This document shows, piece by piece, positions 34,935 to 39,008 of a stretch of DNA of 64,000 bases. A program made the translations under genes and the position numbers. The notes beneath the pieces are model-generated. The model made no database searches, was not told where the DNA came from, and saw nothing but the letters and a program-made list of their open reading frames with translations. How positions within the stretch are numbered: the stretch's first letter is position 1; every line of letters starts with the position of its first letter. This DNA is from Ignavibacteriales bacterium (GTDB taxonomy: Bacteria > Bacteroidota > Ignavibacteria > Ignavibacteriales > SURF-24), in contig JAPLFH010000012.1 of assembly GCA_026390815.1 (NCBI GenBank), positions 124,001 to 188,000 of the forward strand, written 5' to 3'.

Positions 34935-37100
34935 TTAAAGAATTATTAGAAAAATTTCTCTTATCTCTTTCCAAACTTTAGTCTTTATAAATTTTTCAAA
35001 TTCCTTTTCACCCAGGGGAAAACTATTTTTTAATTCTCCATAAGTAAATATCCGTTCAGAATTAAAACTGGACAGCTTTGCAATTTCACTCAACCAAACT
35101 CCAATTTTTTTGTCTACTTTCCAATTTCCTTCTGCAGAATTGCCAAATATTTGCAGCCCAATTTTATCGTTAGATTTCTTATAAATTGGCTGAGAACCAA
35201 TCCATAAAACTTTCATTCGATCATTTAACTCAATCTCTTTATAGGAATTGTCTAAATAACTCTTTATTAACTCTGCTGGAATATTTGATTGTGGCACTTT
35301 AAAATCAAACCAACTATCTGCAGCCCAAGCCAGACCAATGCTATGCATAAAATTGTAAAGCGCTTTGTTTAATCCATCTGAATATTTATAATAATTAACA
35401 CCTGTGGAATCTTCGTGTAACAAATCATTGTTGGCAAATGAATTTCTTGTAGACGATTTTATTTTTATCCCGTAGAAACCGGGATTCAAAGCAATCGGAC
35501 TGTGAATGGTTAACGTAAATAAATGCCAAAAAGCTGATTGAATAAAGTCCAAATTGATGAATTGGCGTACAATTTCTAAGCTGTTTATTATTTCCTGTTC
35601 AGTTTGAGAAGGAAATCCATACATTAAATATGCGTGTACTAAAATTCCAGCTTGCCTAAAATTGGAACAAGTAACTGCAACCTGTTCTAATGTAACCCCT
35701 TTGTTAATCAACTTAAGCAATCTATCATCAGCAACTTCCAGCCCACCGCTTACTGCAACACAACCAGATAAGGATAACAGTTTACACAAATCCTTTGTAA
35801 ATGCTTTTTCAAAACGAATATTACCCCACCATGTAACTTTAAGTTTGCGCTTTAGAATTTCAAATGCAATTTCTTTAAGTAGAGTTGGTGGAGCAGCCTC
35901 ATCAGTAAAATGAAATGCTGTTTTACCTGTTTGAGAAATTAAATCTTCCATACAATCTACAACAGTAACAGCTTTTGCTGGAGAATATCTTCGTATGTAA
36001 TCCAAGGTTACATCACAGAAAGTACATTTTTGCCAATAGCATCCGTGTGCAACCATAAGTTTATTCCAATAGCCATCAGTCCAAAGACGGTACATGGGAT
36101 TTAGCATTTCTGTAATTGATATATAATCATCCGGATTAATTCCTGCTAAATATGGGGAATTAAAATTATCATGCTTAAATAGTTCATTATGATCATTTTC
36201 AGAAAAAATTAATGTACCATTATTGCGTCGCAATGTTCTGATAAAATTTTTAGGTTTATTCTTACTATGTAAATTATTAATTATACTTAGCAGCGGAAGT
36301 TCACCATCATCGTAAGTAATGTAATCAGTATAATCAAATATTTTAGAGTCTTTTATATTTCTTAATTCGGTATTCACATATCCACCACCAAAAACAATTT
36401 TAGTTTTAGGAAAATTATCTTTTACAAATTTTGATGATACCAATGCACCTAAAAGATTTCCTGGAAATGGAATAGTATAACCTACCAGATGGGGTTTATA
36501 ATCTCTAATTTTTTTAGAAGTTTCTTCAATGATAAAATCCTCAATCAAATTTGTTGTTCGAGTTAATTCCTTAAGAATTGGTCCGAAGGTTGAAAGGCTT
36601 GTAGCAATTTTTTCACCGTACCTGCTTAATCCAAAATGTGGTGAGATTGTATTACGGATTAAATTTGTTAAATCATCTATTAAAAGTGAGCAGTAATATT
36701 TTGCTTTGTCTTGAATGCTAAAATACCCAAATGCGTCTTCAGGAATTTCCTTTTCGAATGACTTCCCTTTTGGCAGGAAATCTTCATTTATAATTCGGTA
36801 TGCAAGATTTTGATTTCTTCCTTGTAAAAAATTTATAACTGCATCAATTACATCAATATAATTTTGGGATAACGCCAGGCATCGGATTATATATTGATCT
36901 TTTTTTGATTTTTGCCCGGCAATTGTAGAAAATATTTTAGTTAATCCTTCTTTGGAAAATATACGAAGAGTAACAGCTAATGATAAATCAAAATTAATAA
37001 CTTCATAACCATTTGATTTAAGAAATCCTGCTAATTGAGTTGTAGATGGATATGGTGTGTTTATTTGTGTAAATGGAGGAATTATCAACAGAACTTTCAT
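34935..37100 (-). CDS. B12-binding-domain radical SAM protein
   Basis: The 721-aa protein has an N-terminal cobalamin-binding-like domain (LLIIPPFTQINTPYPS at the start, KIVFGGGYVN near residue 240) and a radical SAM TIM-barrel with cysteines in GCYWQKCTFCD (about residues 354, 359, 362). The spacing is CX4CX2C, one residue more than the textbook CX3CX2C. VSGGLEVADDRLLKLINKGV and YLMYGFPSQTEQEI are typical barrel motifs. B12 radical SAM enzymes often methylate or rearrange unreactive carbons; the substrate is unknown. The ATG at 37100 overlaps the upstream gene's TGA as TGATG, so its translation is coupled to the nuclease candidate. Confidence 0.88.
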   Translation of the reverse strand: MKVLLIIPPFTQINTPYPSTTQLAGFLKSNGYEVINFDLSLAVTLRIFSKEGLTKIFSTIAGQKSKKDQYIIRCLALSQNYIDVIDAVINFLQGRNQNLAYRIINEDFLPKGKSFEKEIPEDAFGYFSIQDKAKYYCSLLIDDLTNLIRNTISPHFGLSRYGEKIATSLSTFGPILKELTRTTNLIEDFIIEETSKKIRDYKPHLVGYTIPFPGNLLGALVSSKFVKDNFPKTKIVFGGGYVNTELRNIKDSKIFDYTDYITYDDGELPLLSIINNLHSKNKPKNFIRTLRRNNGTLIFSENDHNELFKHDNFNSPYLAGINPDDYISITEMLNPMYRLWTDGYWNKLMVAHGCYWQKCTFCDVTLDYIRRYSPAKAVTVVDCMEDLISQTGKTAFHFTDEAAPPTLLKEIAFEILKRKLKVTWWGNIRFEKAFTKDLCKLLSLSGCVAVSGGLEVADDRLLKLINKGVTLEQVAVTCSNFRQAGILVHAYLMYGFPSQTEQEIINSLEIVRQFINLDFIQSAFWHLFTLTIHSPIALNPGFYGIKIKSSTRNSFANNDLLHEDSTGVNYYKYSDGLNKALYNFMHSIGLAWAADSWFDFKVPQSNIPAELIKSYLDNSYKEIELNDRMKVLWIGSQPIYKKSNDKIGLQIFGNSAEGNWKVDKKIGVWLSEIAKLSSFNSERIFTYGELKNSFPLGEKEFEKFIKTKVWKEIREIFLIIL

Positions 37101-37732
37101 CACTTAATTCCCCAAATAATATCTGCCTGAACAAAATTATTTTCATCTAAATCAATTCTAAATAATTTGTTGGAATTGAAGTCAGCCACATATTTCTTAA
37201 TCAGTTCCTTCAACCAAAACAATTCAGCTTTAAGCTTCCAATTTTCACCATCGTGTGATTGTAGAACTATAAACAATCGGTTCTTTAAGTGTTTTCTTTT
37301 CTGTTGGCTTTGATTCACATATAGCCATCTAATCAAATCGATTGGATCTTTCTGTGCCTCTTCAATAGTTTTATTATATTTTTTGGGAAATACTGTTGTC
37401 TTATGATCAAAGCTTATTCCCATAATTTCAAAATCAACAAGTTTGTCTTTATGATTCTTTGCAGGTTTTACATTGGGAAGCGTGCAGAATATAAATTCTA
37501 TTGCGTGAGCAGACCAGAAATTGAACCAACGGTTCATAGCGTAATTTGAAAGTAATTCGTAGTCGACTCTTTTATCAAATCTTTCCTTAATGTTTTTTTG
37601 CAGATCAAGAAATTTTTCTGTGTGATAAATGAAATTAGTAAGATTATCAAAAATATCATTCTGCTTCATTCCCCAATTGTAAGGATAGTCCAATCGTTTC
37701 TTTAATTCAATTTCAATCTGTAGTAATTCCAT
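37100..37732 (-). CDS. Putative PD-(D/E)XK-type endonuclease, partner of adjacent DNA methyltransferase
   Basis: I know no named family for this 210-aa soluble protein. A PD-(D/E)XK-like core can be proposed: Glu79 in SAHAIEFIF, Asp100 in KLVDFEIMG and Asp109-x-Lys111 in SFDHKTTVFP, with beta-strand-like segments around them and a 9-residue spacing typical of restriction enzymes. It starts 2 bases after the methyltransferase stop, the order of many type II restriction-modification pairs, and its stop overlaps the radical SAM start. Restriction function is inference from motif and position. Confidence 0.6.
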   Translation of the reverse strand: MELLQIEIELKKRLDYPYNWGMKQNDIFDNLTNFIYHTEKFLDLQKNIKERFDKRVDYELLSNYAMNRWFNFWSAHAIEFIFCTLPNVKPAKNHKDKLVDFEIMGISFDHKTTVFPKKYNKTIEEAQKDPIDLIRWLYVNQSQQKRKHLKNRLFIVLQSHDGENWKLKAELFWLKELIKKYVADFNSNKLFRIDLDENNFVQADIIWGIK

Positions 37733-37734
37733 TT

Positions 37735-38802
37735 TTACACTTTCTGGAAAAGGAAAATATACTCGTGTTTAAAAATATAAAAACCACCTTTTAATGCTCT
37801 GTAGCGCCACAATTCTTTTTGATTCATCTTTCCTTTAGTTTCATCAAAGTTTTTAATGATGGTAGATTTTAGTTTGAATTTTCTTTTTAGAACTTCTTGC
37901 ATAGAATAAAATCCAAGAGGAATCCATTCACCTCCAGAATACTTATCTCCAATTACCAAGGCAAGATATTTTCTTTTTCCTAAAATTGGATAAATTCCAT
38001 CAATAATTTGTCCTAATCGATCAAGAAAGTCTTCAATACTTTTTGAATTGGATAAATCACTTTCATCCTTGCTGAACTTTATAATATCCCAATAAGGTGG
38101 GTGCATAATTACAAATTGAATCGTTTCTATCCCAATTTTCTGCAATTCTTTTTCAAAATTAATTTTTGTGCTGTCTCCACAAATTATTTTCGATTTATAA
38201 TCTGAACCAAAAATATCTTCTTCTTTTGCAATATTTAATTTTGCTAATTCAGCAATTGAAGGTAACAATTCAATACCAATTCCGTTTCTACCAAGACGCT
38301 TGCATTCAATTAAAGTTGTTCCGCTGCCAAGAAAAGTATCCAAAACCCAATCACCTTTCTTTGTAAATCTCCTTAACAATTGATTTGGAATCTGTGGAAT
38401 AAAGTTCCCCCAATATCCTGCGTTATGCGCACCGGAGGTATCTCGTTTATCAAATATCCAAAGGCTATCAGTAATAATATCATCATATTGCTTCCAGAGA
38501 TTCATATTAAGATCGTTTAAAATGTTTTCATCATTTACAGTCAAACTTTTTATCAGACGGCTGATGTAATACTTCGTTCTTTCAATTGTTTTCGTTTCAA
38601 CTATTTGATTGAGTTCAGTCAACAAATATTCTCTGATGTTATTCTTATTCCCATTGTTATTAGGAATCAAATAATCTATTTCCAGGTTATCGGAATTTTC
38701 CACAACATTTTTAAGATCGAGTAAACCATTTTTTATTAATTGTAACTCCTGGTTACTTAACAGATTTCTTAAAACATCAATAGGTTGTAGTTTATTTTTC
38801 AT
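37735..38802 (-). CDS. DNA N4-cytosine/N6-adenine methyltransferase
   Basis: The 355-aa protein shows the AdoMet-binding motif LDTFLGSGTTLIECKRLGRN (Asp155 onward) and the catalytic motif IMHPPYWDI (residues 232-240; HPPYW replaces the common DPPYW or TSPPY). AdoMet motif comes before the catalytic motif. It has an N-terminal region of about 115 residues without recognisable motifs, possibly target recognition. It should methylate an amino group of adenine or cytosine in DNA. It heads a three-gene unit with a nuclease candidate and a radical SAM gene. Confidence 0.88.
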   Translation of the reverse strand: MKNKLQPIDVLRNLLSNQELQLIKNGLLDLKNVVENSDNLEIDYLIPNNNGNKNNIREYLLTELNQIVETKTIERTKYYISRLIKSLTVNDENILNDLNMNLWKQYDDIITDSLWIFDKRDTSGAHNAGYWGNFIPQIPNQLLRRFTKKGDWVLDTFLGSGTTLIECKRLGRNGIGIELLPSIAELAKLNIAKEEDIFGSDYKSKIICGDSTKINFEKELQKIGIETIQFVIMHPPYWDIIKFSKDESDLSNSKSIEDFLDRLGQIIDGIYPILGKRKYLALVIGDKYSGGEWIPLGFYSMQEVLKRKFKLKSTIIKNFDETKGKMNQKELWRYRALKGGFYIFKHEYIFLFQKV

Positions 38803-38930: not shown

Positions 38931-38935
38931 TAACG

Positions 38936-39008
38936 TGGGCAGAGACGGAATTGAACCGCCGACACATGGATTTTCAGTCCATTGCTCTACCGACTGAGCT
39001 ATCTGCCC
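38936..39008 (-). tRNA. tRNA-Phe (GAA)
   Basis: The 73-base gene starts GGGCAGATAGCTCAG on the minus strand; acceptor arms GGGCAGA and TCTGCCC pair fully. The anticodon loop CTGAAAA carries GAA for phenylalanine, and GGTTCAATTCC forms the T arm. CCA is not encoded. It is a single-gene unit with its own promoter and terminator. Confidence 0.97.

Follow-up and report, generated by a model that had tools for sequence, protein, structure and literature searches.

A predicted methyltransferase and a putative restriction endonuclease, likely directed at CATG, very probably form an orthodox Type II pair in an Ignavibacteriales genome

The enzymes specific for the tetranucleotide CATG include NlaIII/iceA1, CviAII, FatI and UpaP162; NlaIII is contained in the ICEA family, and FatI originates from a Flavobacterium. 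UpaP162 of Ureaplasma (GenBank AP018561, UPV_230) is a CATG endonuclease without a recognizable domain and is encoded beside a methyltransferase (PMC6191088). More generally, orthodox Type II restriction-modification systems comprise two adjacent genes, are spread sporadically, keep the methyltransferase nearly always near, and leave a trace in the form of recognition-site avoidance, which according to a published survey comes from orthodox Type II systems only and not from other types (PMC4687349). The two adjacent genes described here share all of these traits, agreeing with orthodox Type II systems in every feature that can be tested by computation, and they are very probably such a system themselves. 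They differ in that the family of the second gene product, a 210-aa protein, has no match in Pfam, NCBIfam, PADLOC, PHROGs or the PDB, and in that members of this family are accompanied by methyltransferases of two or more classes that are not related to each other. The 210-aa protein may be set beside UpaP162 by description, since both cases combine a known or putative endonuclease lacking a recognizable domain with an adjoining methyltransferase, and beside UpaP162, CviAII and FatI by their common, in our case predicted, target. It has the same predicted target as the NlaIII/ICEA family and differs from it in showing no match to ICEA (PF05315) at E ≤ 1.

The analyzed window comprises 64,000 nt of contig JAPLFH010000012.1 (positions 124,001-188,000, forward strand) from the Ignavibacteriales bacterium assembly GCA_026390815.1. 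The first-pass annotation of this DNA had described three minus-strand genes joined by a 2-base gap and a TGATG overlap, and the open reading frames of the window reproduce this layout exactly (Table 1). The gap between the methyltransferase and the 210-aa gene occupies positions 37733-37734, and the 210-aa gene shares a single base, within TGATG, with the radical SAM gene. The 721-aa length of the radical SAM protein corresponds to an ATG start, with a GTG located 3 bases upstream as an alternative. A pattern search found no repeat of the 3' end of the neighboring tRNA-Phe gene elsewhere in the window; there is therefore no sign of tRNA-targeted integration, and the tRNA gene was rejected as an integration site. 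The permease gene flanking the unit was found in four genomes of the same family.

Table 1. Coordinates of the features discussed, numbered from the first base of the 64,000-nt window.
Feature	Coordinates	Strand	Length	Basis
DNA methyltransferase, N6_N4_Mtase class, permuted; predicted modification subunit	37735..38802	-	355 aa	Pfam PF01555, PADLOC PDLC03351, co-occurrence
Putative Type II restriction endonuclease	37100..37732	-	210 aa	Conserved residues, AlphaFold model, CATG avoidance in carriers
Radical SAM protein, probably B12-dependent; bystander	34935..37100	-	721 aa	Pfam Radical_SAM, unrelated neighborhoods in 8 relatives
tRNA-Phe (GAA), directly upstream of the methyltransferase	38935..39008	-		ARAGORN

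The assignment of the methyltransferase draws on matches to the Pfam N6_N4_Mtase model (85 bits, over the cut-off) and to the PADLOC MTase_II model (434 bits, residues 58-354), with motif I (FLGSG, 157-161) located ahead of motif IV (HPPY, 234-237), as in the permuted order. In a set of 59 related genomes, 12 contain the 210-aa gene and 12 the methyltransferase (E ≤ 1e-40), and 11 harbor both (Fisher p = 5e-10, kinship ignored); in one genome (G001) the two lie on separate contigs. The only carrier without this methyltransferase (G027) encodes a D12-class adenine methyltransferase directly downstream of the 210-aa gene, and the single other D12 match among the 59 genomes, in G014, is weaker (36%). 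All 12 carriers consequently have an N6_N4 or a D12 methyltransferase somewhere in their genome.

A scan of public genomes returned 207 relatives of the 210-aa protein, of which 80 were kept. Within 5 kb of the 210-aa gene, 70 of these 80 loci encode one or both enzymes (N4/N6 in 36, D12 in 33, both in 1) and 10 encode neither; some of the loci come from the same genomes as the set of 59 relatives, so the two counts overlap. The D12 partner enzyme matches PF02086 with 179 bits. One of the 10 loci without either partner has a Dam-family methyltransferase immediately upstream and another is the G001 contig; the other 8 of the 80 genome loci showed no recognized methyltransferase over a distance of 5 kb, nor anything else that would account for them. 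Members of the 210-aa family are also present on five viral contigs. On one of them (L127:3340-5612) the family member directly follows the gene for a 526-aa N6_N4 methyltransferase, on a second (L131) an EcoRI-type methyltransferase is located just upstream, and on a third (L128) the neighbor is a D12 enzyme. In the tree of the nuclease family partner types are clustered, yet 11 changes of partner label are needed, of which at least three, involving D12, are imposed by branches with good support. The 210-aa protein hence stays with methyltransferases as a class and not with one type, and so behaves as a restriction endonuclease would. The two genes of a pair are in places separated, by IS200-like (Y1) transposase genes at two loci (L016, L021) and by a META-domain gene at a third (L017).

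Searches of Pfam, NCBIfam, PADLOC and PHROGs with the 210-aa family yielded nothing above noise, and nothing credible was found among PDB sequences, where the sole match in a profile search was a chance one, to a heat shock protein. The PD-(D/E)XK-like pattern that the first-pass annotation had pointed out (Glu79, Asp100, Asp109-x-Lys111) is not due to chance, because its four residues are invariant or nearly so across the 56 aligned relatives: Glu79, Asp109 and Lys111 are found in 56 of 56, and Asp100 in 55, with Glu in the remaining one. The AlphaFold model of the protein is confident (mean pLDDT 90, pTM 0.87) and places Glu79 on a helix (58-84) followed by a strand (88-90), Asp100 just ahead of the next strand (101-103), and both Asp109 and Lys111 on a further strand (106-114), after which come a helix (130-141) and a last strand (152-158). 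Judged by element order and residue position, without superposition, this helix-strand-strand-strand-helix-strand succession is that of the alpha-beta-beta-beta-alpha-beta core of PD-(D/E)XK enzymes. The expectation that structure prediction would reveal such a core was therefore borne out for the order of elements and not for a significant fold match, as Foldseek returned no hit at E ≤ 0.001 for the model in the PDB and viral (BFVD) libraries (best E-values 0.22 and 0.04, respectively, with low TM), even if its list of weak matches includes the restriction endonucleases BstEII, NhoI and Eco15I. The protein shares with the PD-(D/E)XK superfamily the catalytic residue pattern and the order of secondary structure, but it matches none of the named members in sequence and none significantly in structure, and since Foldseek gave no significant relative its proposed membership is argued from motif and element order. 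On this basis we regard it as a putative endonuclease of the PD-(D/E)XK type. The predicted family is undescribed by Pfam, NCBIfam, PADLOC, PHROGs and the PDB, its likeness to UpaP162, CviAII and FatI as drawn here concerning the predicted target, and related proteins may already be entered in REBASE as putative enzymes. A distant match to the nuclease (31%) is located within a 373-aa frame in one of the related genomes (G024:C1:3142790-3143089, locus L013).

Avoidance of short palindromes points to the sequence that the putative endonuclease recognizes. In a first look at carrier loci, CATG was the most depleted tetranucleotide palindrome, with observed/expected ratios of 0.58, 0.47 and 0.44 in three sets, and of 0.87 in loci from genomes with the radical SAM gene only. 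The comparison was then made on newly fetched stretches from 58 relatives and on the window, contrasting carriers and non-carriers for 86 palindromes with kinship ignored. CATG ranked first of the 86 (median observed/expected 0.48 in carriers versus 0.80 in non-carriers, one-sided p = 2.3e-5), and the difference persisted within a single family, f3 (0.37 versus 0.80, p = 4e-4). In a table computed without G024, a weakly avoiding carrier, all 10 hexamers with a CATG core were reduced in carriers, and the avoided unit is therefore the four-base core. In Flavobacteriaceae, where the partner of the 210-aa protein is mostly a D12 enzyme, a single hexamer was counted, ACATGC; the 16 carriers had 136 copies of it per Mb and the 24 non-carriers 261 per Mb (p = 1e-5, kinship ignored), whereas the reversed hexamer, used as control, did not differ between them (p = 0.79). 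Because CATG is avoided specifically by carriers, and because this is repeated in Flavobacteriaceae with a mostly different partner, CATG is the likely target site of the endonuclease, as judged from correlation in carrier genomes. Literature searches brought up nothing direct on CATG methylomes in the carrier groups.

Strong CATG avoidance was also observed in three non-carriers (G005, 0.30; G031, 0.35; G053, 0.44). A search of the relatives for ICEA, which might have explained them, gave no match, and none in the controls either. ACATGC is nearly absent from one member of the Flavobacteriaceae (G084, 13 occurrences in 2.6 Mb) that gave no nuclease match at the applied cut-off, and which likely has a different or lost CATG system.

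Methyltransferase pairing, motif conservation, CATG avoidance in carriers and the lack of linkage to the radical SAM gene, all computed here, can be brought together in one explanation that we hold to be highly probable as a whole. The methyltransferase would mark CATG in the host genome, either on the N6 of adenine or on the N4 of cytosine. The 210-aa protein would work on its own, probably with two subunits that each hold a metal site of the PD-(D/E)XK type, and would cut unmarked CATG in incoming DNA, in the manner of an orthodox Type II system. The radical SAM gene downstream would be an unrelated accessory gene that the pair happens to adjoin. For this pair we infer cleavage and its metal dependence, the dimeric state, which base is methylated, and a protective effect against phage. 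The reading of the first two genes as a Type II restriction-modification layout, which the first-pass annotation had proposed from gene order, is strongly supported by their co-occurrence, by the exchange of partners across methyltransferase classes that are unrelated, and by the avoidance of CATG in carrier genomes. For the broader proposition that this is an undescribed CATG-specific endonuclease family that has repeatedly swapped methyltransferases (N4/N6 permuted, D12, Dam-type and, on viral contigs, further ones) without a change of target, we see the chances as evenly balanced.

Carriers of the putative endonuclease are distributed over Ignavibacteriota, Bacteroidota, Chloroflexota and Fidelibacterota, in addition to some viral contigs, and include the cultured species Lutibacter flavus and Flavobacterium alvei. 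As the protein is missed by Pfam, NCBIfam and PADLOC, such genomes would be annotated with a lone methyltransferase only. The predicted specificity makes the endonuclease directly testable, and a single endonuclease can be traced across different methyltransferase partners. Comparing palindrome avoidance between carriers and non-carriers could likewise provide targets for other unrecognized endonucleases.

That the 210-aa protein matches no family, and that its fold resembles no nuclease of solved structure significantly, would also suit a protein that is not a nuclease but some other methyltransferase-associated factor, for instance a regulator or a specificity protein. We deem this very improbable, given that the conserved E...D...DxK residues sit on the expected structural elements, that a dedicated accessory factor would not be partnered by unrelated methyltransferase classes, and that recognition-site avoidance in carriers needs cutting activity. 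A reading in which CATG is not the target has somewhat more in its favor and is still unlikely. Avoidance is uneven among carriers, with ratios from 0.23 to 0.83 and the weakest values in G024 (0.83) and G001 (0.69); CCATGG is the least affected of the hexamers with a CATG core (ratio 0.81); and GATATC is also rarer in carriers (0.56 versus 0.89 in non-carriers, p = 5e-4). Against this stand the reduction of every CATG-core hexamer and the recurrence of the effect in a second phylum, where the methyltransferase partner is another one.

The remaining alternative is that the three genes work together as a unit, the radical SAM B12 enzyme acting to modify either DNA or the nuclease. The 1-base translational overlap of the 210-aa and radical SAM genes speaks for it, as does the sporadic occurrence of both kinds of gene, but in another genome (G020) the gene downstream of the 210-aa gene is a different one and the overlap is 4 bases, and tight packing is therefore not specific to the radical SAM gene. 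That gene is present in 8 of the other 58 relatives (50-60% identity), where it sits among unrelated and mostly changing neighbors (genes for ABC transporters, esterases, a ThiF protein, an autotransporter-like protein or another radical SAM protein) and in none of the 8 beside the methyltransferase/210-aa pair. Conversely, this gene is missing from every other fetched locus of the 210-aa gene, adjoining the pair in none of the 85 fetched loci and in none of the 11 other carriers among the relatives, and carriage of the two genes is not associated (Fisher p = 0.67). The three-gene unit is rejected on this linkage evidence and we consider it extremely improbable. Nor is the radical SAM gene the conserved core gene that had been raised as another option, as it is found in 9 of 59 relatives and 4 of 197 genomes in the class; it is best read as an accessory bystander, unrelated to the Type II pair.

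As to the product of this third gene, its description as a 721-aa B12-binding radical SAM protein held for the radical SAM part, with a Pfam Radical_SAM match of 45 bits (over the cut-off), the B12-binding match of 21 bits, under the cut-off of 32, being suggestive. It shares the Radical SAM domain and a probable N-terminal B12-binding region with the PhpK-type (TIGR04479) and rSAM_ocin_1 (TIGR03975) families, scoring far below the cut-offs of both (95.4 bits against 600 and 80.5 bits against 281.85, respectively). It differs from these families in the spacing of its radical SAM cysteines, C354, C359 and C362, which form a C-x4-C-x2-C motif, instead of C-x3-C-x2-C, and are invariant in nine homologs.
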